From positions 1-64,000 of the forward strand of contig JAKAJH010000006.1 in NCBI GenBank assembly GCA_021813905.1: a DNA stretch of 64,000 nucleotides. The letters run 5' to 3'. The notes under the pieces are model-generated. The model was not told the DNA's origin. It searched no databases and was given only the letters and a program-made list of their open reading frames with translations. The DNA is from Bacteroidota bacterium (lineage in GTDB: Bacteria; Bacteroidota; Ignavibacteria; UBA10030). Every line of letters starts with the position of its first letter. The first letter of the stretch is position 1. Of the stretch, positions 577-22,066 are shown in pieces. Position numbers and translations under genes: made by a program.

Positions 577-2713
577 CGACCCCCATCTCTTCCAGCAAGA
601 ATCCCGCTCCTCCCACCTTTTCCGTCACCCACAGCACATACCGGATGTCCACGGCGATGGAGCGGCTGTACGATTCGCTCCAGGCGAAATCATTGATCGT
701 GGCCTCGAACGTGCGGTCGAAGTTGATGCCGATCATCTCGCCCCGGGCGTTCATCACCGGGCTGCCGGAGTTACCGCCGGTCGTGTCCGTATCGTACAGG
801 ATCGCCACCGGCACGTCATCCAGTTTCGGGTGCCGGAAGCGGCCGAAATCCTTCTTTGCCGCCAGCTCGCGGATCTTCGCGGGCGTGTTATAGAGGTCAC
901 GATCACGCGTCTTCTCGATGACGCCGCGGAGCGTGGTGATGGGCGAATACCACACGGCGTCGGCGGGCGAATAGCCGCGCACATGGCCGTAGGTGAACCG
1001 GAGCGTGCTGTTAGCGTCGGGAATGAACGTCGCCTGCTGGAAGCGGGACTTCATGTCAACCAGCACGGCCATGGCTTTCGACAAGGCACCCTCACGTCGC
1101 TGACGGATCTCGCGCAGCTGCCGGTACGACGGCTCGAGGGCAAGCGCCAGCCGGATGAACGGATCGTTCGTCTGTTCCAGCGCCTCGGGACTCAGTGCGA
1201 GCGCGCCGAGGATGAAGTCTGCATTGCTGAGTCGTGTGCGGGCGACGGCGGTATCGACAAACCGGTCGAGCGACGTATCGGAGTAATCGTTGCCCAGCGC
1301 GGAATCCAGCGGGGCGATGCGCTGATCGGACGGCAGGGCGCCGGCCAGCGAAAGCATCTTCTTCAGGAAGAGTCGCTGCGTGGGCGCGTACAGATCGCGG
1401 ATCGTCTGCTGATACGATTCCCGCAATGCGTCACGGTTACGGTCCGCGTAGCGGGACACCCGTTCACTGTCGGGCTTCTGGAATTCGTGCGTGGCGTCGA
1501 GCAGCGAGAAGGCAAGACTCAGCAGTGTCGAGGAAGGTCGCAGATAATCGAGCACGAGCTCGGAGGGTGCCCGGGAAGTCATCTCGCGATACACAGCAGC
1601 GATGTCGGCAAGTGCGGTTCCCGCGCGGGCCGTCCGTGCCGGGTCGGCGTCGATGTACTGCCGGAGCCGCGCTTCCTCCGCTTCTTTTTGTGCCACGAGA
1701 TGGAGCCGTGCCATGCCTTTCAGCTTTCCGCGATAATTCTTCGAGGTGTTGGCGAGGCCCTTGATCCAGGCGTCGTGCTTGAGTGCCACGGCGCGGTCGT
1801 CCTTGCCCAGCTGTTCCATGGTCGCGATCTGCCACTCGTACAGGTCGGCGACAAAGGGCATACGGACGGATTCCTCGTACGCAAGGTAGTGCGAAGTCCG
1901 GTGACGGAATGTGCGTCCCGGATAGCCGAGAATGAAGACGAGGTCCCCTTCATCCACTCCGTTCGGATTGACCCGCAGGAATTTGCGGGCATGGTACGGC
2001 ACGTTTTGCGGTGAATAAGCGGCCGGACAGCCGTCAGGCCCGACGTAGGCGCGGAGGAACGAAAAATCGCCGGTATGCCGGGGCCACATCCAGTTGTCGT
2101 CCTCGCCGCCGAATTCTCCCACCGACCGCGGCGGAACGTACACCAGTCGCACGTCGCGGATCAGCAGCGAGATGAACAGCACGTACGATTTTCCCGCGAA
2201 CATCTCGGCCACTTCCGCGCGTCGGCCCGGCTGAGCGCTCTCCGTCTCCCGCACAATCCGGCGGATCTGCTCCTCGATGGAGCGCGTCCGCGCGCCCAGA
2301 TCCATCGTGTCCGTGATCCCCGACAGCACCTCCGATGACACATCGCGGTACGATTCGATCAGCCGCACCGTCTGACCCCGGGCGGGGAGTTCGTCGTCCC
2401 GGCGCACAGCGAGATAACCGTTTGTCACGTAATCGTGCTCGGGCGTGCTCGCGGCGGCCACAGAACCGAACGCGCAGTGATGATTCGTCAGGATCAATCC
2501 CTCCGGAGAGACGAATGAGCCCGTGCAGCCGCCGAGATGGACGATGGCGTCGATCAGGCTGACTCCGCGCGGATTGTAGATATCCTGAACGGAGATGGTG
2601 AGCCCGATCGTGCGCAGGTCGAGCTTCTGCAGCTGGGTGACGGGATACATTCCTTCTTCGGCATGAAGGGAGAGAGAAAGACAGCACGCCAGCGCGAGGA
2701 CAAGACGTTTCAT
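569..2713 (-). CDS. S46 family dipeptidyl-peptidase, predicted DPP11-like (acidic P1)
   Basis: A 714-residue exported serine peptidase that should remove dipeptides from the N-termini of extracellular oligopeptides. I start it at MKRLVLALACCL, which gives a clean signal peptide; the track's 22 extra residues do not look like one. The catalytic His lies in LTNHHC (about 77-79) and the nucleophile in TGGNSGSPV (Ser about 649). Eighteen residues after the Ser is Arg in INFDR. In Porphyromonas gingivalis DPP11 the residue at that spacing (Ser655 to Arg673) selects Asp/Glu at P1, so acidic specificity is predicted here. Length matches the family. A second S46 gene at 54252-56426 has Gly at this position. 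No clear Shine-Dalgarno is visible. Confidence 0.93.
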   Translation of the reverse strand: MKRLVLALACCLSLSLHAEEGMYPVTQLQKLDLRTIGLTISVQDIYNPRGVSLIDAIVHLGGCTGSFVSPEGLILTNHHCAFGSVAAASTPEHDYVTNGYLAVRRDDELPARGQTVRLIESYRDVSSEVLSGITDTMDLGARTRSIEEQIRRIVRETESAQPGRRAEVAEMFAGKSYVLFISLLIRDVRLVYVPPRSVGEFGGEDDNWMWPRHTGDFSFLRAYVGPDGCPAAYSPQNVPYHARKFLRVNPNGVDEGDLVFILGYPGRTFRHRTSHYLAYEESVRMPFVADLYEWQIATMEQLGKDDRAVALKHDAWIKGLANTSKNYRGKLKGMARLHLVAQKEAEEARLRQYIDADPARTARAGTALADIAAVYREMTSRAPSELVLDYLRPSSTLLSLAFSLLDATHEFQKPDSERVSRYADRNRDALRESYQQTIRDLYAPTQRLFLKKMLSLAGALPSDQRIAPLDSALGNDYSDTSLDRFVDTAVARTRLSNADFILGALALSPEALEQTNDPFIRLALALEPSYRQLREIRQRREGALSKAMAVLVDMKSRFQQATFIPDANSTLRFTYGHVRGYSPADAVWYSPITTLRGVIEKTRDRDLYNTPAKIRELAAKKDFGRFRHPKLDDVPVAILYDTDTTGGNSGSPVMNARGEMIGINFDRTFEATINDFAWSESYSRSIAVDIRYVLWVTEKVGGAGFLLEEMGVGE

Positions 2714-2850: not shown

Positions 2851-3933
2851 ATGTCGCAACTCGCACCGCTTGGATGGACACCCGCACTCGATACCGCCGC
2901 TGAATCCCACCGCGCCCAGGGCTTTGACATTGCGCGCGTGACCCAGGAACATCGGGGGGGATACACGATCCGCACTGACCGTTACGAGGTCTCCGCCGAG
3001 GTCTCCGGCCGGCTGATGTTCGACGCCGAAAGCCGGATCGATTATCCCGCGGTCGGCGACTGGGTCGCGGTCACGACCTATGACAACGACACCCACGCGA
3101 TCATTCATGCCATGCTGCCGCGCACCACGGTGCTGCAACGGAAGGCGCCCGGCAAGAAGCTCGAGAACCAGCTGATCGCCACGAACATCGATGCGGTGTT
3201 CGTCGTACAATCGCTGGACGAGACCTTCAATCTGCGCCGCATCGAACGCTTTGTGACCGTCGCCCGGGACAGCGGAGCCCGCGTCATCATCCTGCTCAGC
3301 AAGAAGGATCTTTGCGCACCCGACGATCTTGAGACGCACCGGCAGGAAGCTGCGGGCGTCTCGGCGGACGTTCCGGTGATCGCGTACAGCGCGTTCGACG
3401 CCACGGAAGTGGCTGCGGTGGCCGCCCTGATCAAGCCCGCGATGACTTTCTGCCTCATCGGCGCCTCCGGCGTCGGCAAGTCCACCCTGATCAACGCCCT
3501 GTCGGGGAAGGAACTGCTCGTCACCGGCGAGGTCCGCGAATTCGACGCCAAAGGCCGCCATACCACCTCCTCCCGCGAACTCATCATTTTGGAGACCGGC
3601 GGTATCCTCATTGACACCCCGGGCATGCGGGAACTGGGCCTCATGGAGGAATCGGCGGCGGTCGAGGATACGTTCGACGACATCCTCGAGATCGCCCGCG
3701 AGTGCAAATTCGGCGACTGCACGCACACGCACGAGCCCGATTGTGCCGTTAAGCAGGCGATGGAGGATGGGCGCATCGAAAGCGGCCGGTACGAAAGCTT
3801 TGTACGACTGCTGCGTGAGCGGAAATATCGCATGACGCGCCAGACCAATACCGGCATGATGAAGCGTCAGCTCGAGAACAAGAAGCGCCAGAAGGAACTG
3901 AAAAAGGCGATGAAGAAGAAGGGGAAGAAGTAG
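2851..3933 (+). CDS. rsgA: Ribosome small-subunit-dependent GTPase A
   Basis: A circularly permuted GTPase that helps late 30S subunit maturation by checking the decoding centre. An N-terminal OB-fold (about 1-110) precedes the permuted G domain: LLSKKD (G4, about 148-153) comes before GASGVGKST (P-loop, 204-212), and DTPGMREL (G3) follows, the order that defines the family. A zinc-knuckle region (CKFGDCTHTHEPDC) and a lysine-rich tail close the 360 residues. The gene has its own promoter in the gap shared with the divergent S46 gene. An octanucleotide array begins within 7 bases of the stop codon. Confidence 0.97.
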   Translation: MSQLAPLGWTPALDTAAESHRAQGFDIARVTQEHRGGYTIRTDRYEVSAEVSGRLMFDAESRIDYPAVGDWVAVTTYDNDTHAIIHAMLPRTTVLQRKAPGKKLENQLIATNIDAVFVVQSLDETFNLRRIERFVTVARDSGARVIILLSKKDLCAPDDLETHRQEAAGVSADVPVIAYSAFDATEVAAVAALIKPAMTFCLIGASGVGKSTLINALSGKELLVTGEVREFDAKGRHTTSSRELIILETGGILIDTPGMRELGLMEESAAVEDTFDDILEIARECKFGDCTHTHEPDCAVKQAMEDGRIESGRYESFVRLLRERKYRMTRQTNTGMMKRQLENKKRQKELKKAMKKKGKK

Positions 3934-6970: not shown

Positions 6971-8758
6971 ATGACCCGCTGCATCCTCGCTGTCTTGCTT
7001 CTCCCTGTTGTTCTGTTCGCCCAAACGCCGGACCGGTGGCGTACCGAGTACGAAACAAGCGGATACCTTCGCACAGGCCGATACGCGGAGACCGTCACGT
7101 ACTGTCAGCGCCTTGCCCACGCCTCGCCGTGGGTGCGGTACGAGAGCTTCGGTACGAGTCCCCAAGGGCGCGATCTGCCGCTGGTCATTCTCTCGCGTGA
7201 CGGGGCGTTCACCCCCGAGGCCGCACGAAAGAGCGGCAAGGCGATCGTCATGATCCAGAGCGGTATTCACGCGGGGGAGATCGACGGGAAGGATGCGTCG
7301 CTCATCCTCATGCGCGAGATTGCGATCACGAAAGAGCGCGCCGCGCTCCTGGATCACGCCGTCGTTCTCTTCATCCCCATCTTCAATGTCGACGGACATG
7401 AACGCTTCGGCCCCTCCAACCGCATCAACCAGAACGGTCCGGAGGAGATGGGCTGGCGCGTCACTGCGCAGAATCTGAACCTGAACCGCGACTACATGAA
7501 AGCCGACGCGCCGGAGATGCAGGCGTGGCTGAAGCTGTTCAACGCGTGGATGCCGGATTTCTTCGTCGATTGCCACGTCACCGACGGCATCGACTTCCAG
7601 TATGATGTCACCTTCGAGATGGAACCGTACCCCAATGCGGATCGCACGCTCGCCGCATGGTACGAGCGCACCTTCATTCCGCGCATGATCGCGGACGTGC
7701 AAAACGCCGGTCACCTGATCGCGCCGTATGTCGTCGCCCGCGAGGACAACGATCTGTCGAAGGGCCTCGTTTGCAGCACCAGCGGCCCCCGGCTCTCCAC
7801 GGGGTATTGCGCCAAGCAGAACTGTCCGGCGCTGCTGATTGAAACGCACATGCTGAAGCCGTACCGGCAGCGCGTCTCGGCAACTCATGATATCCTTGTG
7901 TCCACGCTCTCGTTCGTGAATGAGAACACCGCGTCATTGCATCGCGTCATCGCCGAGGCTGATGCGCGGACGAAGACGATGGCTGACGCGTCGGACCGGC
8001 CGTTTCTTCCCCTGCGCTACGAGCTGACTCCTGCGTTTCATCTCGTGCCGTTCAAGGGCGTCGTTGCCCGATTCGAACCGAGCGAGATCTCCGGTACGGT
8101 CCGGCGGATCTACACGTCGGAGCCGCAGGACACGGTGATCCCGTACTTCGACGTGTTTCGCGTGACGGATTCTGTCCGTTTGCCGGCGGCGTACGCCATC
8201 CCCAAGGAATGGAACGCAGTGATCGAGCGATTGCACTGGCACGGGATCCGGACCGAGCGTCTGACGCGCGACACGGATGTCGCGGTGTCGATCTACCGGC
8301 TGAACAATCCCCAATGGCAGCAACGTCCCTTCGAAGGGCACCACGCGGTGAGCTTTACACCGGAGCTGTTGCACGAGCGCTCTCGTCTGGCTGCGGGCAC
8401 GGTCATTGTCCCCGCCGATCAACGGCGCGCCGCGCTCGTTGCGGGATTGCTGGAGCCGTCGGCTCCGGATGCGCTGGTGGGATGGGGATTCTTCGACGCG
8501 ATCTTCGAGCAGAAGGAGTACGGCGAGAGCTACGTGCTGGAGAAGCTGGCGCGGGAGATGATCGCGAAGGACCCGGAACTGAAGAAAGCATTCGACGCGA
8601 AGGTCGCGTCCGATTCCGTGTTCGCGAAGAATCCGTACGCCCGGCTGAATTTCTTCTACCAACGGTCGCCGTACCGGGATGCAAGCCTCGGCATGTATCC
8701 GGTCGTGCGCATTGAGGATCGCGCCGCCATGCGGGCGCTGCCGGTGACTGACCGGTGA
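6971..8758 (+). CDS. Secreted M14 zinc carboxypeptidase
   Basis: A 595-residue exported metallopeptidase. The start is MTRCILAVLLLPVV, which gives a signal peptide ending at FAQ; the 113 upstream residues of the track ORF are non-coding. Zinc ligands HAGEIDG (His100, Glu103) and a later His in DCHVTDG, plus NLNLNRDYMK for substrate binding, place it in the M14 carboxypeptidase fold, with a likely catalytic Glu in LLIETHMLKPY. A further 200 residues of unknown role follow the catalytic domain, as in the long M14 proteins of this lineage. It probably trims C-terminal residues from peptides outside the cytoplasm. No clean TTG/-7 pair precedes it, although TATATTAC lies about 30 bases upstream. 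Confidence 0.92.
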   Translation: MTRCILAVLLLPVVLFAQTPDRWRTEYETSGYLRTGRYAETVTYCQRLAHASPWVRYESFGTSPQGRDLPLVILSRDGAFTPEAARKSGKAIVMIQSGIHAGEIDGKDASLILMREIAITKERAALLDHAVVLFIPIFNVDGHERFGPSNRINQNGPEEMGWRVTAQNLNLNRDYMKADAPEMQAWLKLFNAWMPDFFVDCHVTDGIDFQYDVTFEMEPYPNADRTLAAWYERTFIPRMIADVQNAGHLIAPYVVAREDNDLSKGLVCSTSGPRLSTGYCAKQNCPALLIETHMLKPYRQRVSATHDILVSTLSFVNENTASLHRVIAEADARTKTMADASDRPFLPLRYELTPAFHLVPFKGVVARFEPSEISGTVRRIYTSEPQDTVIPYFDVFRVTDSVRLPAAYAIPKEWNAVIERLHWHGIRTERLTRDTDVAVSIYRLNNPQWQQRPFEGHHAVSFTPELLHERSRLAAGTVIVPADQRRAALVAGLLEPSAPDALVGWGFFDAIFEQKEYGESYVLEKLAREMIAKDPELKKAFDAKVASDSVFAKNPYARLNFFYQRSPYRDASLGMYPVVRIEDRAAMRALPVTDR

Positions 8759-8776
8759 ACGGCCGGATGGCGAGCG

Positions 8777-8807
8777 TTGCTTTTCGGACAACATTGCTGT
8801 ACCATGC
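8777..8807 (+). promoter_or_regulatory. Candidate promoter of the ITPase-like gene
   Basis: TTG (8777-8779), 20-base spacer, TACCATGC (8800-8807). The spacing is exact and the -7 is a moderate match. It lies between the M14 stop and the chosen ATG at 8839, which supports that shorter start. Confidence 0.45.
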
Positions 8808-8838
8808 TGCCGACGTGTGCACCCCGGACTCCCCACAG

Positions 8839-9408
8839 ATGCGCATCGCCATCGGAAGCACGCGACGGCCGAAGGTGGATGCCGTGCGCGCCGTTCTGGA
8901 GCGACTGGCTCCGCTGTTCGGCATTCCGTTCGATGGCATCGCCTTCCTGACGTTCGACGTCTCCTCCGGCGTCGACGAGACACCCCGATCCCTTGAACAC
9001 CTCATGACCGGCGCACGGAACCGTGTGGACGCAGTGCAGCAGGTGTTGCGCGGGCGCGCGGAGCATGCCGACCTGATCATCGGACTCGAAGGCGGTCTCT
9101 GGCGCACCGATCATACCGTCTTCCTGCAGAGTTGGGCGTGCGTCAGCGACGGCAGCCGTGCAACGTTCGGGTCCAGCGGAGCGGTCCCGGTGTCGGATGC
9201 CATCGCGGGGGCGGTGCTGGACCGGGGAGAGAGCCTCTCCGCCGTGATCGACCGGCTGGCGGAGCGAAAAGACATCCGCAGCCATGAAGGCACGTGGGGT
9301 GTGCTCACGCGCGATCTGCTGACGCGGCGCGAATCGTTTGAGACCGCGCTGCTCTGCGCATTAGCGCCGTATTACAATGGAGCCTTCTATCGGCAGGGGA
9401 CTCCCTGA
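8839..9408 (+). CDS. Inosine/xanthosine triphosphatase-like protein (YjjX/DUF84 family)
   Basis: A 189-residue cytosolic protein expected to hydrolyse damaged purine nucleoside triphosphates (ITP, XTP) so they stay out of nucleic acids. I use the ATG at 8839: MRIAIGSTRRPKVDAV is the typical family start (GSTNPxKxxAV), and the 28 earlier residues would overlap the promoter and the M14 stop. Supporting motifs are VSSGVDETPRS, GARNRVDAV, GLEGGLW and a C-terminal SHEGTWGVLTRDLLTRRESF, which resembles the conserved end of the family. It is 17 bases upstream of waaA, so the two may be cotranscribed. Confidence 0.88.
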   Translation: MRIAIGSTRRPKVDAVRAVLERLAPLFGIPFDGIAFLTFDVSSGVDETPRSLEHLMTGARNRVDAVQQVLRGRAEHADLIIGLEGGLWRTDHTVFLQSWACVSDGSRATFGSSGAVPVSDAIAGAVLDRGESLSAVIDRLAERKDIRSHEGTWGVLTRDLLTRRESFETALLCALAPYYNGAFYRQGTP

Positions 9409-9425
9409 CGGATCGTCGGACAATC

Positions 9426-10709
9426 ATGCAGACATTCTGGATCTGGTTCTATAACGCGCTGGTCATTCCGGTCTTCTGGACGCTGGTGCACATCGCCGGA
9501 TGGTTCAACCCGAAAGTGCGGCGGGCCATCCGCGGGCGACAGACGATGTTCGACAAGCTCGCGGCCGATGTCGGCCGGCTGACGAGTACGCGGCGCATCT
9601 GGTTCCATTCCTCCTCCATGGGAGAATTCGAGCAGGCCAAGCCGATCATCGCGGCGCTCCGCGCCCGGTTCAGGGATCTGAACATCATCGTCAGTTTCTT
9701 TTCTCCCTCCGGTTACGATCACTCGAAGAACTACAAATTGGCGGATGTCATTACGTACATTCCGTTCGATTCGCGGACGCAGGCGCGGCGGTTCCTCGAC
9801 CTGATCCGTCCGACGGCGGCAGTGATGGTGCGCTACGACGTGTGGCCCAACCACATCTGGGAGCTGCGCCGCCGGAATGTGCCGACGTTCATCGCAAACG
9901 CGACCATGCGGGACAACTCGTCGCGGTTCCTTCCGATTGTCCGCAGCTTCCATCGCGCCTTGTATAACAATCTGACGGCGATTCTGACCGTGTCGGAGAA
10001 AGACGTCCGGAATTTCCGGCGGTTCGGCATCAGCAACGGACGGCTGGAAGCCATCGGCGAGACGCGCTATGACCAGGTCTGGCAGCGCAGCGAGGATGCG
10101 CGGCAGAAACATGTCATGCCGCCGCAGATCATCCGGAAGCGCAAGGTCATCGTGGTGGGAAGCAGCTGGCCGGACGATGAAGAGGTGCTGCTGCCGACCT
10201 TCCGCAAGATACTGAAGTACGATCCGCGGGTGCTGATGATCCTCGTTCCGCACGAGCCAACCGTCGAAGCGCTGGATGCCATCGAAATGTCGCTCGGTCA
10301 GCGTCCGAAATCCATCCGCTTTTCGGTCCTCAACGACTACAACAGCGAGCCGATCATCGTCGTGGACAGCGTGGGCATCCTCATGTCCCTGTACCAGTAC
10401 GCCGACGTGTCGTACGTGGGGGGAAGTTTTCGGCAAGGGATCCACAATGTTCTGGAACCCGCCGTCTATGGCATTCCGGTGGTGTATGGTCCGAAGCACG
10501 AGAATTCCCAGGAAGCGCAGGAACTCGTGCGTCGCGGCGGGGGATTCGTCGTGCGCGACCAGCAGGAATGCTACCGCACGCTTCGGACGCTGCTGGGTGA
10601 TGATGCTGTTCGCAGCAACGCCGGCGCCGCCTCTCTCGCCCTCGTAAAAGAAAACATCGGCGCCACGGAGCGGTTTGTGAAGAAGATGGAAGGAGTACTG
10701 AAGCCGTAG
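9426..10709 (+). CDS. waaA: 3-deoxy-D-manno-octulosonic acid (Kdo) transferase
   Basis: A GT30 glycosyltransferase that adds Kdo from CMP-Kdo to lipid A at the inner face of the cytoplasmic membrane. The 427 residues begin with a hydrophobic anchor (about 3-25). HSSSMGEFEQAKPII (about 60-74) holds the Gly-Glu pair typical of the active site. YDVWPNHIWE, ANATMRDNSSRF, VSEKDVRNFRRFGI, VGSSWPDDEE and EPAVYGIPVVYGP follow the expected order of the N- and C-terminal Rossmann domains. Its presence shows a Gram-negative LPS-type outer membrane. It is downstream of the ITPase-like gene and followed 14 bases after its stop by a heptad array that can fold into a hairpin. Confidence 0.95.
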   Translation: MQTFWIWFYNALVIPVFWTLVHIAGWFNPKVRRAIRGRQTMFDKLAADVGRLTSTRRIWFHSSSMGEFEQAKPIIAALRARFRDLNIIVSFFSPSGYDHSKNYKLADVITYIPFDSRTQARRFLDLIRPTAAVMVRYDVWPNHIWELRRRNVPTFIANATMRDNSSRFLPIVRSFHRALYNNLTAILTVSEKDVRNFRRFGISNGRLEAIGETRYDQVWQRSEDARQKHVMPPQIIRKRKVIVVGSSWPDDEEVLLPTFRKILKYDPRVLMILVPHEPTVEALDAIEMSLGQRPKSIRFSVLNDYNSEPIIVVDSVGILMSLYQYADVSYVGGSFRQGIHNVLEPAVYGIPVVYGPKHENSQEAQELVRRGGGFVVRDQQECYRTLRTLLGDDAVRSNAGAASLALVKENIGATERFVKKMEGVLKP

Positions 10710-10721
10710 AGGAACCGGGTT

Positions 10722-10758
10722 GAATTGTCAATTGGCAAGGGGCAATTGACAATTCTGC
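10722..10758 (+). repeat. ATTGNCA heptad array forming a 13-bp perfect hairpin
   Basis: From 10724 the sequence divides into heptads ATTGTCA, ATTGGCA, AGGGGCA, ATTGACA, ATTCTGC. It also forms a perfect 13-bp inverted repeat (GAATTGTCAATTG / CAATTGACAATTC) around an 8-base loop. It lies just after the waaA stop and is AT-rich in a GC-rich context. There is no T-tract, so it is not a standard terminator. Related heptads follow hpnD at 22046-22066. Confidence 0.85.
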
Positions 10759-10824: not shown

Positions 10825-12003
10825 ATGAGAGTCTGCTATTTTGATACCATCGGCGGCATCAGCGGAGACATGGCGCTCGGTGCGCTGGTCAACGCCGGCG
10901 TGCCGCTGACCGAGCTGTCGGATGCGCTGAAGTCGCTGAACATCCCCGGCTTTGAGCTGGAAGCGCGTCACATCGAGCGCAGCGGGATCGTCGCGACCAA
11001 AGTGGATGTGGTGCTGGGGGCGCACGACCATCATCATCGGCATCTCAGCGACATCGAAACCATCATCGACGGCAGCGGCCTGACCGGCCGGGTGAAAGAG
11101 CGATCGAAGAAGATCTTCCGCGAGGTGGCGATCGCCGAAGCCAAAGTGCATAACGTGGATATTGCGGAGGTGCACTTCCACGAGGTCGGCGCGCTCGATT
11201 CGCTCGCGGATATCGTCGGCGTCGCGGTGTGCCTGGAGATGCTCGGGATCGAGGCCGTCTATTCCTCGCCGATGAAAGTCGGACGGAGCGGACTGGTGGA
11301 CTCCCAGCACGGCAAGCTTCCGGTGCCGACCCCCGCCACGATGGAAATTCTGCGCGGATATCCGTTGATGTTCACGGAAGCCCCGTACGAGCTGACCACC
11401 CCCACCGGTGCGGCGATCATCAAAGCGCTGTCGTCCGGCGTGCTTGCCACCGAACTGCTCTCGACGGAGGCGATCGGCTACGGCGCGGGATCGCGGGAGA
11501 TCGAGCAACTGCCGAATCTGCTGCGCGTGGTCATCGGAACACTCGATCCTGACTATCGGACCGACGAACTCGTGAGCGTCGAAACGAACATCGACGACAT
11601 GAATCCGGAGATCTATCCGTACGTCGTCGAACAGCTCCTGGCGGCCGGCGCGAACGACGCATACCTGGCACCGATCCAGATGAAGAAAGGCCGCCCCGGC
11701 ATGCTGCTGTCGGTGCTTGTGAGCCGTCTGCATCTGGATGCCATCCTCGCGGTAATCTTCCGCGAAACCACGACCCTCGGCGTCCGCCTTCAGCCGGTCG
11801 AGCGACGCAAGCTGCAACGCAGCCAACGCCGGGTGCGGACCTCGCTGGGGATGGTGACCGTGAAAGCGGTCATCCGGGACGGGCGGGAAGAACTCGCCGC
11901 AGAGTTCGAAGATTGCAGACGCATTGCGACCGAGAAGAACATGGCGCTGGTGGATGTCATACAACAGGTTGACGCCGAACTGAAGGCAAAACCCAATTCC
12001 TAA
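10825..12003 (+). CDS. larC: Nickel-pincer cofactor biosynthesis protein LarC, single ORF
   Basis: A 392-residue CTP-dependent nickel insertase that completes the pincer cofactor of lactate racemase and related LarA enzymes. Recognisable segments are YFDTIGGISGDMALGALV at the start, a His-rich stretch (DHHHRHLSDIE, about 66-76), VHFHEVGALDSLADIVG, TPTGAAI, and ETNIDDMNPEIYPYV opening the C-terminal (LarC2) half. In Lactobacillus plantarum the two halves are joined by programmed frameshifting; here they are one continuous frame. No larA, larB or larE lies in the window. Bases 10759-10824 before it show nothing notable. Confidence 0.93.
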   Translation: MRVCYFDTIGGISGDMALGALVNAGVPLTELSDALKSLNIPGFELEARHIERSGIVATKVDVVLGAHDHHHRHLSDIETIIDGSGLTGRVKERSKKIFREVAIAEAKVHNVDIAEVHFHEVGALDSLADIVGVAVCLEMLGIEAVYSSPMKVGRSGLVDSQHGKLPVPTPATMEILRGYPLMFTEAPYELTTPTGAAIIKALSSGVLATELLSTEAIGYGAGSREIEQLPNLLRVVIGTLDPDYRTDELVSVETNIDDMNPEIYPYVVEQLLAAGANDAYLAPIQMKKGRPGMLLSVLVSRLHLDAILAVIFRETTTLGVRLQPVERRKLQRSQRRVRTSLGMVTVKAVIRDGREELAAEFEDCRRIATEKNMALVDVIQQVDAELKAKPNS

Positions 12004-12092
12004 GCTCCACGCACCAGAAAACCCACCGAACAGCGTAATCACCAACAAGGGGGCGTGACCGCATACGCCTGGAAGTCGACAAGGGGGATACC

Positions 12093-12509
12093 ATGGATTC
12101 CGGAAGAACGAAGCCGTTCGACTTGGGTGAGCGGACGCTCTTATTCGCGCAACGGACGGTACGATTTGTGGATCGAGTCTGCTATGGCGTGGCGAATGTG
12201 GAAATCGCCAGACAACTTGTCCGTTCAAGCGGGTCGGTGGGCGCGAACTACATCGAGGCCGGTGAATCACTGGGCAAAAAGGACTTCATGATGCACATCC
12301 GCATCTGCGCAAAGGAAGCAAAAGAAAGCAGATACTGGCTTCGCCTCATCTCCTGCGAGACCGTCCTCGAGTCAGAGCGGGAATCACTCATCGCAGAAGC
12401 CTCTGAGCTCACGAGGATATTTGGAGCAATGATCCGCAATGCGCGCTTGCGGCAAGAGACGGAACATCTCAAACGGAAACATGGCAATACACTGTCTGGA
12501 CTTGAATAG
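12093..12509 (+). CDS. Four-helix-bundle protein (23S rRNA intervening-sequence protein family)
   Basis: A 138-residue helical protein of the S23/IVP type, first found inside intervening sequences of bacterial 23S rRNA genes but also common as free-standing genes in Bacteroidota. Family signatures are VCYGVANVEIARQLVRSSGSVGANYIEAGE and later KEAKESRYWLRLI. No biochemical role is established. The gene is less GC-rich than its neighbours and uses more A-ending codons, which hints at a separate origin. No rRNA is nearby, so it is not in an intervening sequence here. Confidence 0.88.
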   Translation: MDSGRTKPFDLGERTLLFAQRTVRFVDRVCYGVANVEIARQLVRSSGSVGANYIEAGESLGKKDFMMHIRICAKEAKESRYWLRLISCETVLESERESLIAEASELTRIFGAMIRNARLRQETEHLKRKHGNTLSGLE

Positions 12510-12584: not shown

Positions 12585-14060
12585 ATGTCTCCTCTTCCCC
12601 TCGACCATATGCTCTTCATCGGCGCCCTGTTGGTCGTTCTCAGCGTGGCGATCACGAAGCTGTCGGATACGCTCGGTATTCCGGCGCTGCTGCTCTTTCT
12701 TGCGATGGGCATGCTGGCCGGATCGGAGGGACCGGGAGGGATCTATTTCGACAATGCGGCCGTGGCGCAGTCGGTCGGAACCGTCGCGCTGGCCTTTATC
12801 CTCTTCGCGGGCGGACTCGATACGCACTGGAGCGCGGTGCGGCCCGTCGTGACTCAGGCGGCGATCCTCTCGACCGTCGGCGTGCTGCTGACGACGGGGG
12901 CCGTAGGCGTGTTCGCCTGGCAGGTATTCGATCTGCCGCTCCCGGTGGGTCTGCTGCTGGGCGCGGTCGTCTCCTCCACCGACGCGGCGGCAGTGTTTTC
13001 GGTCCTGCGGTCGAAGCAGGTCAGCCTCCGCGGAACGGTCGCGCCGCTGCTCGAGCTGGAATCCGGAAGCAACGATCCGATGGCCGTGTTCCTGACCATC
13101 GGCATGATCCAGTACATCACCACGCCCGGCACGACGCTCGGCACGATCGGGATCCTCTTTCTGCAGCAGATGTCGCTGGGAGCCGTCTGCGGGATCCTTC
13201 TCGGCAGGGCCCTGGTGGCGTTCGTCAACCGCCTGAATCTGTACACGGAAGGCATCTATCCGGTCTTCGTGATCGCATTTGCCGCGCTCATCTACGCCGG
13301 TACTGCCGCGATCGGAGGAAGCGGATTTCTGGCGGTGTATCTGGCCGGTCTGGTCGCGGGCAACAGCGACTTCGTGCAGAAGAAGAGTCTCATCCGCTTC
13401 TTCGACGGCTTCGCCTGGCTGAGCCAGATCGCGATGTTCCTGACGATGGGGCTGCTTGTGTTTCCGTCACGCATCGTTCCGGTCGTCGGCATGGGCATGG
13501 GCATCGCCGCATTCCTGATCTTCATCGCGCGACCGGTCGCGGTGTTCCTGTGCCTGCACGGCGCAGGCTTCGGATGGCGAGAAAAGACATTCGTTGCGTG
13601 GGTGGGATTGCGCGGCGCGGCCCCGATCATTCTGGCGACGTTTCCGCTGCTGGCACGCGTGCCGCAGGCCGGAATGATCTTCAACGTGATCTTCTTTGTC
13701 GTGCTCATGTCCGTGCTCCTGCAGGGGTGGTCGATCCCGCAGGTGGCACGGTGGCTGCGCCTGGACAGGCCGATGGAGCGTCGCCGCTCGCTGCTCGAAT
13801 TCACGCCGGCGCCCGGCAGCGACACGCAACTGGTCGATCTGATCGTTCCCTACAATGCCGCCGTCGTCGGTTCTCCGCTCGTGAGCGTCGGCTTTCCCGA
13901 GGAAAGTCTCGTCGTGCTCATCAGCCGCAACGACGGTTTCATCGTGCCGCGGGGGAATACGATCCTGCAGGAAGGAGACACGCTGCTCGTCCTCGCGAAT
14001 TCACGCGACCTCTCCGTCGTCCGTCAGCTGCTTTCCGTGACCCGTCCGCCGGAGCGTTGA
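12585..14060 (+). CDS. Potassium/proton antiporter, CPA1 (NhaP2/CvrA) type
   Basis: A 491-residue inner-membrane antiporter expected to exchange K+ (or Na+) for H+ in ion and pH homeostasis. About twelve membrane segments span residues 5-395. The ion-binding core shows SSTDAAAVFSVLRS (about 125-138), ELESGSNDPMAVFL, and the later Arg-rich GLRGAAPIILATFPLL. A soluble TrkA-C-like domain (about 415-485) contains VGSPLVSVGFPEESLVVLISR and LQEGDTLLVLA, as in the NhaP2 branch where it binds a regulatory ligand. Start: ATG following a plausible promoter. A heptad repeat block follows the stop. The overlapping 504-aa ORF in another frame is a GC shadow. Confidence 0.92.
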   Translation: MSPLPLDHMLFIGALLVVLSVAITKLSDTLGIPALLLFLAMGMLAGSEGPGGIYFDNAAVAQSVGTVALAFILFAGGLDTHWSAVRPVVTQAAILSTVGVLLTTGAVGVFAWQVFDLPLPVGLLLGAVVSSTDAAAVFSVLRSKQVSLRGTVAPLLELESGSNDPMAVFLTIGMIQYITTPGTTLGTIGILFLQQMSLGAVCGILLGRALVAFVNRLNLYTEGIYPVFVIAFAALIYAGTAAIGGSGFLAVYLAGLVAGNSDFVQKKSLIRFFDGFAWLSQIAMFLTMGLLVFPSRIVPVVGMGMGIAAFLIFIARPVAVFLCLHGAGFGWREKTFVAWVGLRGAAPIILATFPLLARVPQAGMIFNVIFFVVLMSVLLQGWSIPQVARWLRLDRPMERRRSLLEFTPAPGSDTQLVDLIVPYNAAVVGSPLVSVGFPEESLVVLISRNDGFIVPRGNTILQEGDTLLVLANSRDLSVVRQLLSVTRPPER

Positions 14061-14086
14061 TCGAATAGAAGTCGTTTACCGCGGCT

Positions 14087-14207
14087 TCGGTGTTCGTGCT
14101 TCCCTCGAGGTTCGAAATTCGGTATTCGTGCTTCCTTCGAGTTTCGACATTCGGATTTCGTATTTTCCACATTTGCTCTTCTTCCTTCGTATCTCGATAT
14201 TCGATCT
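14087..14207. repeat. Higher-order TCGNNNT heptad repeat between antiporter and priA
   Basis: The gap is built of TCGNNNT heptads grouped into 32-base blocks: four heptads plus a TCCT/TTCC spacer. Two full blocks are 14105-14136 (TCGAGGT, TCGAAAT, TCGGTAT, TCGTGCT, TCCT) and 14137-14168 (TCGAGTT, TCGACAT, TCGGATT, TCGTATT, TTCC). Partial blocks lie at 14087-14104 and 14187-14207. No promoter or ribosome-binding site for priA stands out within it. Confidence 0.88.
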
Positions 14208-14213
14208 CCGGAT

Positions 14214-16748
14214 GTGATCCCAGTGCTCTCTCGCTACGCCGATATCGCCCTTCCCGTTCCCGTCCCGCATGCGTTCACCTATCTGGTGCCGGATGAGCTT
14301 GATTCGCAGGCCGTGCCGGGCGTTCGGGTGCTCGTGCCGTTCGGCTCCAAAACGCTCACCGGCGTGGTTGTTGACCGTCCGGTCCGCACGCCGCTGACGA
14401 ATCTCAAGGCCATCCGCGATATCCTTGACGCGACGCCCACCTTTTCGGCGGAAATGCTGGAGTTAACCAAATGGATTGCGGAGTACTACATGGCGCCGTG
14501 GGGAGAAGTGCTTCGCGCCGCCATGCCGCAGGGCCTGAGCCGGGAAAGCAAGCGAACGGTCACGGTGGTGGAGGACGAGGTCGGCAGCGCGCTGGCGGCG
14601 ACCGCGACGCGATCTCCAAAGCAACATGCAGTTCTCATGCTTCTATCAAAAGAAAAGATCCTGCGCGCCGAGCAGATTGCCCTGCGGACAAAGGCAAAAG
14701 GCATCCATGCCGTGCTGGCGTCGCTCGCGGCCCGCGGCTGGATCCGCATCGAAGAATCTGTCGAGGAAGCGGAAGCCCGTCCGAAGACGGAAACGATGGT
14801 CGCCCTGACCGAAGATGGCACGCAAGCCGCGCGCGCTGATGCGTCGCGATTACGGGGGAAGCAGCAGCAAGTACTTGCGGCGCTGGCCGCGGGAGAAAGT
14901 CCGATCGCGATGAAACGCCTCCTTCGGCTCGCGGGCGTGTCATCAACTACTGTTCGCACGCTGGCAAAGAACGGGCTGACCCGAATCTTCGAGCAGGAGG
15001 TCTTGCGACGGTCGCTGTACGACGATGTCGAACCGGCCGTCCCCGTGACGCTGAATCCGGAGCAGCAGCTCGCCCTCGACCGAATCCGTGATGCGATCAG
15101 CGGAGGGTCGTATCGGACATTTCTGCTCCACGGTGTCACCGGCAGCGGGAAGACGCAGGTATACATTGAAGCCATCCGGACCCTTCTGCCGACGGGTCGC
15201 ACGGCCATTGTTCTGGTCCCGGAGATCGCGCTGACGCCCCAGACCGTACGGCGGTTCAAGGCACATTTCGGGGCGGATGTGGCGGTGATGCACAGCCAGA
15301 TGTCGGTCGGCGAGCGCTTCGACGCCTGGCGGCAGGCGCACGACGGGCGTGTGCGGATCGTCATCGGGCCCCGTTCGGCGATCTTTGCGCCGCTGACGAA
15401 CGTTGGCCTCATCGTCGTGGATGAGGAGCACGAGGGATCGTACAAACAGTACGATGCAACGCCGCGCTACCACGCGCGGGATGTGGCGATTGTTCGCGCG
15501 CTGCGCCAGCGGGCCGTGGTCGTGCTGGGATCAGCCACGCCCTCCGTGGAGAGCTACGCCAATGCCATATCGGGCAAGTACACTCTGCTCGAGCTGCCCA
15601 AACGCATTGACGACGCGACGATGCCGGCGATCGAGATCGTGGATATGGCGCGGGAGCGGCGGGACCGATTCGAGGCCATCAAAGCGGATGTGCGATCCGG
15701 CGGAAAGGAATTTCCAAAGCGACTGCCCGTCACATCCGTCTCGCGATTACTGGAGATGCAGATCCGGCAGCGCCTGGAGCGGCGGGAGGGAGTGATCCTG
15801 CTGCAGAACCGGCGCGGATTTTCGCATGTGGTGGAATGTTTCGAGTGCGGCGCCGTCGAGCGCTGCGATAACTGCGACGTGACGCTGACGTTTCATGCGA
15901 CGAAGAAACATCTGCGCTGTCACTATTGCGGCCTCGTGAAGAAGCCGCCGTCGGTCTGCTCTTCGTGCGGCAGCACGGACCTCCGGATGCACGCATTCGG
16001 CACGCAGCAGGTGGAAGGAGAACTCGCGGCGCTCTTTCCGGAGGCGATCATCCTTCGCATGGACCGGGACACCACGGCGCGACGCGGCGCCCATGACCGC
16101 ATCCTCAGTCAGTTCGGAGACGGCCGAGCGGACATTCTGCTGGGAACGCAGATGGTCGCGAAGGGACTCGACTTTCCGCGGGTGACCCTTGTCGGCGTGA
16201 TCTCAGCCGATACGCAGATGCTGCTGCCGGATTTCCGGGCTGCGGAGCAGACATTTCAGCTGCTCACGCAGGTTTCCGGCCGGGCGGGACGAAGCACGCT
16301 GTCGGGCGAGGTCGTGATCCAGACATTGCAGCCCGAACACTACAGTCTGAAGCACGTGGTGGGACACGACTTCCGGGGATTCTACGAGGAGGAGTTGGCG
16401 TACCGGCGCGAGCTTCGCTATCCGCCGTTCTCCCGCGTGGTGCTCGTGGAATTCAGCGGCGAGCAGGAAGTGCAGGTGCAGCGATGCGCGGCGGGATTCG
16501 CCGATCTGCTTGCAAAGACGAACCAGCGGAACGCGTTCACCGTGCTCGGTCCGGCCGACGCCGCAATCCCCCGTGTTCGCAACCGGTTCCGGAAACATGT
16601 GCTCGTGAAAGATGTGAAGGAAAAAGATCCGTCGGGGGAAATCATCCGCCGTGCGATCCGAACTGCCACGGCCCAGCACGAGGCAGCGTTGCGAACCATG
16701 AAAGGCGTCCGCATGGTCGTTGACGTCGATCCGCAGGGACTGATGTAA
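14214..16748 (+). CDS. priA: Primosomal protein N', replication-restart helicase
   Basis: An 844-residue superfamily 2 helicase that recognises abandoned replication forks and reloads the replicative helicase. It starts at GTG, giving the typical opening of the 3'-DNA-binding domain (ADIALPVPVPHAFTYLVP). Walker A is HGVTGSGKTQVY (about 303-314), Walker B DEEHEGSYKQ, with GPRSAIFAP between. The zinc module has the expected cysteine pairs (CFECG, CDNCDVTLTFH, CHYCG, CSSCGS), then LLGTQMVAKGLDFPRVTLVG and a C-terminal domain. About 30 residues between the 3'-binding and helicase domains look helix-rich and variable. The gene lies between two heptad-repeat blocks. Confidence 0.96.
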   Translation: MIPVLSRYADIALPVPVPHAFTYLVPDELDSQAVPGVRVLVPFGSKTLTGVVVDRPVRTPLTNLKAIRDILDATPTFSAEMLELTKWIAEYYMAPWGEVLRAAMPQGLSRESKRTVTVVEDEVGSALAATATRSPKQHAVLMLLSKEKILRAEQIALRTKAKGIHAVLASLAARGWIRIEESVEEAEARPKTETMVALTEDGTQAARADASRLRGKQQQVLAALAAGESPIAMKRLLRLAGVSSTTVRTLAKNGLTRIFEQEVLRRSLYDDVEPAVPVTLNPEQQLALDRIRDAISGGSYRTFLLHGVTGSGKTQVYIEAIRTLLPTGRTAIVLVPEIALTPQTVRRFKAHFGADVAVMHSQMSVGERFDAWRQAHDGRVRIVIGPRSAIFAPLTNVGLIVVDEEHEGSYKQYDATPRYHARDVAIVRALRQRAVVVLGSATPSVESYANAISGKYTLLELPKRIDDATMPAIEIVDMARERRDRFEAIKADVRSGGKEFPKRLPVTSVSRLLEMQIRQRLERREGVILLQNRRGFSHVVECFECGAVERCDNCDVTLTFHATKKHLRCHYCGLVKKPPSVCSSCGSTDLRMHAFGTQQVEGELAALFPEAIILRMDRDTTARRGAHDRILSQFGDGRADILLGTQMVAKGLDFPRVTLVGVISADTQMLLPDFRAAEQTFQLLTQVSGRAGRSTLSGEVVIQTLQPEHYSLKHVVGHDFRGFYEEELAYRRELRYPPFSRVVLVEFSGEQEVQVQRCAAGFADLLAKTNQRNAFTVLGPADAAIPRVRNRFRKHVLVKDVKEKDPSGEIIRRAIRTATAQHEAALRTMKGVRMVVDVDPQGLM

Positions 16749-20578: not shown

Positions 20579-21928
20579 TTACCCGCCCATCCGCTCCGCG
20601 GCTCTCCGTCCGCTTAATACCGCCCCTTCGATCGTGGCGGGATATCCGGTGTCGGTCCAGTCTCCGGCAAGGAACAAATTCGCCAGGGCAGTGTCCGTGC
20701 GCGGCCGGAACGCCTCCAGTCCCGGCTCCGGTACGAAGGTCGCCCGCTTCTCTCTTATCACTATCGCGTGTCGCAGCGTCGCTTCCTTGACGCGCGGCAG
20801 ATAGCGCTGCAGTTCTTCCACCCCCATCCGCACCACCGCGTCCTTTTCCCAGTTGTCGTATTCATCCGCACCGCTGACCGTCAGGGAGAGCTGCATTCCC
20901 GGCGCTCCGGCTCCCGTCATCCGCGTCCGATTGAAGACCCAGTGAATGCGTGAGCCCAGCAGTGCGGCGAACTCCTGCGTCATTACATCGCGGTCGAACC
21001 AGAGATTGATCCCCAGGATCGTGGACGGACGATAGTGCTGCGACATTGCCCCGGGTGGAACCGGCTTCCTGGCCTTCAGCACCAGTGAAGGAAACACACG
21101 CTCAAAGGCGAAGAACGGCAGCGTGCTGATGCAGGCCGAAGCGGAATAGACCGCACCGCGTTCGGTCTTCACAGCACGGATCGTGTCGCCGAGGATGTCC
21201 ACGGCTGAGATATCTTCGCCGGTGCGAACGGCGCCGCCGTGCTGCTCGATGAACCGGACCGCCGGATCGACCAGGACCTCGCTCAGTCCGGCGCGCGGGA
21301 TGAGCATGCTCGCATTCTGCGCATTGCCCAGGAAAGCCGCACGCAGCACGCGGAAGAACAGCAGAGCCGACACATGCTCCGGGCGTTCATTCAGTGCGCC
21401 GATGGCAATGATGTCCCACAGATGTCGGCGAGCGGCTTCGGATTGACCGAGTTGTCTCAGCCACGCGTCCACCGTTATCGTGTCAAGCCACTGCTCTTTG
21501 CGCGGTGACGTGCCGACGATCGCGGCTCCGACCGTGAGAAGCTTCAGGCGGTCGGTGAAAGAAAGGGAGGACAGATCCAGCATGCCCAACCCGACGTGCA
21601 GGGGGGCGGGGAGTGACGGACAGGCCAGCGATGCGGTGCGTCCCCCGGCATGGATGAAATCGATGCGAAGCGACGGCTGAAGGAATGTCAAATGCTCGGA
21701 GCCGATCAGCGACAGATACCGCCGCGTGGCGGCGTAGCACCCCATCAGGAGATGCTGGCCGTTGTCAATCGTGTCGCCCGTCGTCGGATCGACGAAGGAG
21801 CGCGTGCGTCCCCCGGCATACGGGCGCTGTTCCAGCACAAGCACGCGCATGCCGCGTCGCGTCAGCTCTACGCCGGCGCTGAGACCCGCGAGACCGGCAC
21901 CAAGGATGAGAACGTCGGGAGAAGGCAC
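20579..21928 (-). CDS. hpnE: Hydroxysqualene dehydroxylase
   Basis: A 449-residue FAD-dependent amine-oxidase-fold enzyme that converts hydroxysqualene to squalene, the last step of the bacterial HpnCDE route. The dinucleotide-binding site GAGLAGLSAGVELTRRG (about 8-24) is followed by LEQRPYAGGRTRSF. The C-terminal FAD segment reads FLAGDWTDTGYPATIEGAVLSGRRAAE. It is the last gene of a minus-strand hpnC-hpnD-hpnE unit, 144 bases after hpnD; that gap carries heptad repeats. No squalene-hopene cyclase lies in the window, so the end product (hopanoid, sterol or other) is unknown. Confidence 0.93.
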   Translation of the reverse strand: MPSPDVLILGAGLAGLSAGVELTRRGMRVLVLEQRPYAGGRTRSFVDPTTGDTIDNGQHLLMGCYAATRRYLSLIGSEHLTFLQPSLRIDFIHAGGRTASLACPSLPAPLHVGLGMLDLSSLSFTDRLKLLTVGAAIVGTSPRKEQWLDTITVDAWLRQLGQSEAARRHLWDIIAIGALNERPEHVSALLFFRVLRAAFLGNAQNASMLIPRAGLSEVLVDPAVRFIEQHGGAVRTGEDISAVDILGDTIRAVKTERGAVYSASACISTLPFFAFERVFPSLVLKARKPVPPGAMSQHYRPSTILGINLWFDRDVMTQEFAALLGSRIHWVFNRTRMTGAGAPGMQLSLTVSGADEYDNWEKDAVVRMGVEELQRYLPRVKEATLRHAIVIREKRATFVPEPGLEAFRPRTDTALANLFLAGDWTDTGYPATIEGAVLSGRRAAERMGG

Positions 21929-21934
21929 AAGTCA

Positions 21935-21955
21935 GAATTCAAAATTCAAAAGGAG
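21935..21955. repeat. AAATTCA heptads in the hpnD-hpnE gap
   Basis: GAATTCA, AAATTCA, AAAGGAG in direct succession, an AT-rich heptad run just upstream (in gene orientation) of the hpnE start. Confidence 0.6.
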
Positions 21956-22045
21956 AGAGGGGATTGGCAAACGAAAGCAATCATCGGGCGGCCTTGGAAC
22001 CGGTGGGCAGGCGAAGCGTCTCCATACTCCCGCCATACAACCTTG

Positions 22046-22066
22046 ACTGTCAATTGTCAATTGACA
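22046..22066. repeat. ATTGNCA heptads after hpnD
   Basis: ACTGTCA, ATTGTCA, ATTGACA in direct succession, ending 6 bases from the hpnD stop. The same heptad family follows waaA. Between 21956 and 22045 I see nothing else. Confidence 0.75.

Follow-up and report, generated by a model that had tools for sequence, protein, structure and literature searches.

The repeat array directly upstream of priA in the Bacteroidota bacterium studied here is probably the decayed, tandemly amplified terminal arm of an S23/IVS-like intergenic element that carries a four-helix-bundle gene. The array lies in the window, the 64,000-nt stretch of DNA that was analyzed (contig JAKAJH010000006.1, positions 1 to 64,000). 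Its attribution draws on a module of fixed form with sharp edges, on the pairing of this module in inversion, on its linkage to PF05635 genes and on an insertion context between larC and priA.

Structure of the array upstream of priA

The 7-nt/32-nt repeat occupies 14086-14213, slightly more than first noted. It is made up of three 32-nt blocks, one 18-nt degenerate block and one partial block, each 32-nt block being TTCC followed by four heptads, mostly TTCGNNN:

14086..14099, + strand: partial block of two heptads, TTCGGTG TTCGTGC
14100..14131, + strand: 32-nt module 1, TTCC CTCGAGG TTCGAAA TTCGGTA TTCGTGC (module score 17.9)
14132..14163, + strand: 32-nt module 2, TTCC TTCGAGT TTCGACA TTCGGAT TTCGTAT (module score 40)
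14164..14181, + strand: 18-nt degenerate piece, its length equal to 4 + 2 x 7
14182..14213, + strand: 32-nt module 3, more degenerate, TTCC TTCGTAT CTCGATA TTCGATC TCCGGAT
14214..16748, + strand: priA, with an alternative start GTG at 14223

Module 3 ends flush with the listed priA start, the GTG at 14214. Identity within the array was 0.53 at lag 7 and also at lag 32, whereas 5000 shuffles gave a mean of 0.29 at both lags and maxima of 0.42 and 0.45, respectively. Among the 3992 128-nt tiles of the window the array ranked first for lag 32 and seventh for lag 7, and it had the top Tandem Repeats Finder score (110) of the 35 rows in the window. These values confirm the nesting of heptads in 32-nt blocks described in the first-pass annotation, which had been made from the sequence alone; its division into two full and two partial blocks was miscounted, the full blocks being three. 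Module 2 was the top match of the window to the module profile (score 40, compared with a training median of 57 and a minimum of 20), and no match on the shuffled window reached a score of 8. A heptanucleotide microsatellite is defined by near-identical units and no higher structure, which is not what was found: the array is not a plain microsatellite, since a 4-nt spacer comes after every four heptads and TTCG is constant while NNN varies.

The exact 32-mer of the array had no second copy in its own genome. Triplets of TTCGNNN were found there at four further places (two on C45, one on C58 and one on C70), and the reversed control pattern gave 0 matches. On C45 of this genome (L091, ~8300-10200) TTCG heptads flank both sides of a 1.7-kb stretch, and one TTCG heptad site of L091 adjoins an apparent interrupted Y1-type transposase reading frame. 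A second heptamer array, with another word (CATTCTC/CATCCTC, about 10 copies), is present at 494-587 and is the clearest strict 7-bp array in the window.

A 32-nt module recurs in related genomes

Arrays of four TTCGNNN were present in 21 of 41 relatives, with 0 matches for the reversed control pattern. In these genomes the 32-nt module is TTGT(TTCGNNN)4TT, with TTGT as spacer where the window has TTCC. The 98 genomes of the order, most of the genomes compared being MAGs, were searched for three or more TTCG heptads preceded by TTGT; 23 of them matched, and reversed controls gave 0. The 83 modules contain four TTCG heptads after TTGT in 65 cases, three in 17 and five in 1, and their edge is sharp, the logo becoming random directly beyond the final TT. 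The NNN triplets are drawn from a small set of words (GAT, AAT, TGC, ATA, TAT, AGC and others), far from independent letters, and heptad 2 favours ATA. The fixed count supports the earlier remark that the two levels of order go beyond simple slippage alone. The suggestion of a small repeat element amplified as a unit is likewise borne out, the module being found seven times in tandem in G006, judged to be the genome of Bacteroidia bacterium HBSIN02 (L031). These seven 32-nt copies (C13, L170 6420-6672) are near-perfect and stand beside an inverted arm, and they illustrate cleanly the amplification that the window shows.

A broader scan for the spacing TTGTTTCG-N{10,40}-TTGTTTCG in 294 genomes of the class was set aside as too unspecific, its matches being mostly background; 32-nt spacing shows up in it in G006 and G254.

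Modules pair in inversion to form an intergenic element

An inverted partner was found within 260 nt for 45 of the 83 modules. Two such modules make up an intergenic element of 107-180 nt with the form AAATYCGAA(NNNCGAA)3ACAA - centre - TTGT(TTCGNNN)4TT, the centre measuring 39-114 nt in most. Gene calls from a simple ORF caller place the modules mostly between genes, beside many unrelated neighbours, and the outer tip of the element is in many cases 0-15 nt past the neighbour's stop codon. In L252 and L253, elements at shared gene neighbourhoods differ in their words but keep TTCG. Visual inspection of the ends of aligned elements did not reveal a target-site duplication, and no transposition event was observed.

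In L254 and L185 the centre between the inverted arms holds an apparent intrinsic-terminator hairpin; the centres of ORF-less elements differ and, judging from these hairpins, may be host-derived. The window also contains short inverted heptad-like sequences at 10723-10754 (TTGTCAATTGGC...GCAATTGACAA) and, at 21916-22063, AGAATTCAAAATTCAAAAG with TGTCAATTGTCAATTGACA about 110 nt away, both similar to further ORF-less elements of this general type.

The paired arms could alternatively act in RNA, as an RNase III stem that is cut from the transcript, and this, in place of DNA mobility, would be how the insertion is tolerated. We consider this rather unlikely, with evidence on both sides. RNase III excises IVSs that carry S23p (PMC4990558), the tips just past stop codons lie in transcribed region, and the folds of five full elements lie far below those of shuffles (z -3.4 to -9.3), a result expected by construction of any inverted repeat. 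On the other hand, the NNN triplets are not complementary between arms: the arm-to-arm triplet match was 0.134, compared with 0.139 when partners were shuffled between elements. Selection for a conserved hairpin at the NNN positions was rejected because these triplets do not match. The window copy has a single arm type and no stable fold, its RNA folding no better than shuffles (z = -0.68). Covariance searches with Rfam detected no family at gathering threshold in 18 element loci, tRNAs excepted, and no meaningful match among 4227 families at 13900-14400 of the window.

The element is linked to PF05635 four-helix-bundle genes

A comparison of flanks showed that modules in several genomes are accompanied by one common small protein. 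In L253, the clearest case, the arms at 2538-2571 (- strand) and 2977-3010 (+ strand) exactly enclose one 121-codon ORF, which is PF05635 23S_rRNA_IVP / TIGR02436 four helix bundle, and the ORF of L182 also matches PF05635. The full form of the element would read AAATYCGAA(NNNCGAA)3ACAA..., then a four-helix-bundle (S23/IVP) gene, then ...TTGT(TTCGNNN)4TT. A PF05635 gene lay within 700 nt of 9 of the 83 modules (8 of 62 loci), compared with about 0.4% expected. Arm orientation was identical in all 11 PF05635 genes fetched with arms; fetching these loci by the TTCG pattern biases their frequency and leaves orientation unbiased. PF05635 was found in 82 of the 98 genomes of the order, with up to 18 genes per genome and 8 in the own genome, and in 0 of 14 control genomes. 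TTGT modules were confined to genomes with PF05635, being present in 23 of these 82 and in none of the other 16 (p = 0.02). A search of viral contigs with a five-sequence alignment of the protein detected no relative, and none in phages.

Loci were also fetched solely by PF05635, independently of the TTCG pattern, and nine periods were compared per flank. These loci are flanked by 7-bp arrays whose heptamer changes from copy to copy (TGCCTAA, TTAGCTN, ACTCAAG, GGGTATA and TGTTCAC, for example) and is not of the TTCG type, and PF05635 genes on plasmids of Cyanobacteria, a Chloroflexota and a Bacteroidota species have such flanks as well. Lag 7 outranked the other periods in 40 of the 51 flanks from the order, in 18 of the 20 from plasmids and in 5 of the 10 from the own genome; among control flanks it did so in 55 of 609. 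In an enlarged plasmid set (20 genes, including Gemmatimonadota and Azospirillum) it was best in 29 of 40 flanks, whereas for other annotated genes on two of these plasmids the figure was 26 of 170 flanks (p = 5e-12); nine of the remaining PF05635 flanks showed period 8 rather than 7. The sharing of sequence between the two flanks is inverted: scored by ungapped alignment, the upstream flank gave a median of 26.5 against the reverse complement of the downstream flank, 16 in direct orientation and 16 when swapped with another locus. A 6-mer version of this test was not discriminating, control genes scoring as high, and was replaced. In 530 kb sampled from the own genome, strict arrays of period 7 did not outnumber those of period 8; for this reason the generality of the association rests on the PF05635 flanks.

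On several plasmids the PF05635 gene is located between genes of one operon (cas2/cas1 and helicase/methyltransferase, for example), as an inserted unit would be. Four-helix-bundle genes occur inside CRISPR operons on the cyanobacterial plasmids L343, L344, L348, L358 and L364, twice between cas2 and cas1, once beside cas1 and twice between cas6 and cas4.

A literature search covering few subscription journals returned no paper linking PF05635 genes generally to heptamer arrays. Among bacterial mobile elements still unrecognised, PF05635/S23 genes with inverted heptamer arrays may form one of the most widespread classes, conserved in their 7-nt step and not in sequence; we put this forward tentatively, at somewhat less than even confidence. 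Two other readings keep the linkage and interpret the arrays differently, either as slippage-prone ends that are tolerated or as host-borne repeats used as landing sites. Were the mobile class real, there would have to be a new mechanism by which DNA or RNA ends are read or written in steps of 7 nt, and a large part of the excess of heptameric repeats long noted in bacteria would be explained.

The larC-priA gap and the origin of the array

The region upstream of the array contains the following features:

10825..12003, + strand: larC-like gene for nickel insertion, ancestrally next to priA
11988..12021, - strand: candidate for a decayed left arm, extending over the stop codon of larC and 72 nt before the PF05635 gene
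12093..12509, + strand: four-helix-bundle gene (PF05635 4.1e-11 / TIGR02436 3.5e-18)
12585..14060, + strand: sodium/proton-exchanger-type antiporter (PF00999 + TrkA_C), between the PF05635 gene and the array

In all 15 relatives with a placeable complete larC end, larC is directly before priA, with a gap of 10-523 nt. In the own genome the PF05635 gene and the antiporter separate the two. The antiporter adjoins priA in this genome only among those compared, and its neighbourhoods in relatives showed no PF05635 gene and no heptads. The gene at 12093-12509 is likely the protein of the element, inserted between larC and priA. It has no clear heptad flank and is 1.6 kb from the array, which itself carries no ORF. 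On the minus strand of the 64 kb no segment matches the arm better than 11988..12021, yet its score is negative; a decayed left arm at the larC stop codon is suggested by the sequence rather than shown. The TTCC spacer of the window in place of TTGT and the lack of a clearly preserved left arm count against attributing the array to the element, as do the missing heptad flank of the window's PF05635 gene and the other heptamers at PF05635 loci fetched without the pattern. In HBSIN02, a member of a different genus, the same gap is occupied by a PF05635 gene of that genome (1.1e-27) together with inverted repeats of its own; the gap of a same-genus genome holds a GGATTGC-type heptad array, and that of L033 an apparent short inverted element. 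These contents indicate that the larC-priA gap has received such elements repeatedly.

We infer that the element moves as a unit, inserting at gene boundaries where it would be co-transcribed and tolerated. The part played by its protein is also inferred: this pentameric four-helix bundle, or else a host enzyme, may recognise the 7-nt steps in the form of DNA ends or of an RNA stem. Copies that lack the ORF could be internally deleted, MITE-like derivatives. In the own genome, larC would have been separated from priA by an insertion that carried the PF05635 gene and the antiporter, after which the right arm may have multiplied in 32-nt units by slippage or unequal recombination. At priA the array would today be mainly leader and spacer DNA.

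Could the array be an ordinary heptanucleotide simple-sequence repeat, with slippage followed by duplication of a 32-nt sub-block carrying a 3-base indel, and no element at all? Heptameric repeats are over-represented in bacterial intergenic DNA (PMC4692102), the same-genus array in the gap is an unrelated heptamer, and duplication naturally yields higher-order repeats. As a full account this is nevertheless refuted by the recurrence of the same module, sharp-edged and of fixed count (4 + 4 x 7), in 23 genomes; the modules are moreover paired in inversion, and 7-bp arrays track PF05635 genes in several phyla. We regard it as improbable.

The proposal of the first-pass annotation that the array is a designed protein- or RNA-binding platform in the priA leader is very improbable: its place in the leader, flush with the listed GTG, and a TTCG spacing that is kept while NNN varies, as in binding sites and as in L252 and L253, would suit it, but in relatives the array is not conserved upstream of priA, the gene before priA there is larC and not the antiporter, the RNA does not fold above shuffles or match an Rfam family, and the module adjoins many unrelated genes. 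Recurrence of the block and its conservation in the syntenic gap had been named as the tests of that annotation; the block was found again elsewhere but is not conserved at the syntenic gap.

Read as the arm of an inserted element, an odd promoter-region repeat records an earlier insertion, in this case one between larC and priA. Recognising the element suggests where many 7-base repeats of bacterial genomes, so far unexplained, come from, and it joins two questions, the role of the four helix bundle protein and the excess of heptameric repeats between bacterial genes. If the flanking arrays are the sites of the protein, a single binding or mobility assay would address both.

Comparison with known systems

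Heptameric intergenic repeats have been described as GGGAATC/GGGGATT in Xanthomonas and Nostoc (PMC4692102) and as TAACTGA in Beggiatoaceae, Cyanobacteria and Bacteroidetes (PMC4679880). The repeats studied here resemble them in being 7-bp intergenic units with variable words at a constant period, often in inverted pairs as in Xanthomonas. The published repeats were not linked to a gene or element, PMC4692102 stating that an association with mobile elements was in general not found, whereas here there is a fixed module and a linkage to PF05635.

Like MITEs and BIME/REP, the elements are short, dispersed and intergenic, with inverted termini, and appear as ORF-less derivatives of a larger element. 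The MITE traits (short, dispersed, terminal inverted repeats, no ORF) are found in the 107-180-nt elements and not in the one-arm window array. Unlike MITEs and BIME/REP, their termini consist of 7-nt steps with variable words. No target duplication or transposase was identified, and the larger relative (L253) carries a PF05635 gene and not a known transposase.

The 23S rRNA IVS of Coxiella burnetii has 28-bp terminal inverted repeats and tandem heptameric repeats, GACAGAT, directly before the S23p ORF (PMC4990558). The present element differs from 23S rRNA IVSs in lying between protein genes, usually at stop codons, and not in a 23S rRNA helix, in being multi-copy, in having 7-bp arrays as arms and in including many copies without an ORF. 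It shares with them a PF05635/S23 ORF of about 120 codons (the ORFs of L253, L182 and the window match PF05635), terminal inverted repeats (in 45 of the 83 modules and at PF05635 genes in general), a length of about 430-500 nt and a sporadic distribution suggesting mobility. As in Coxiella, heptameric repeats stand next to the ORF, lag 7 leading in 40 of the 51 order flanks and 18 of the 20 plasmid flanks. The four-helix-bundle protein matches PDB 2rld over almost its whole length (E 9.6e-18) and probably shares its fold.
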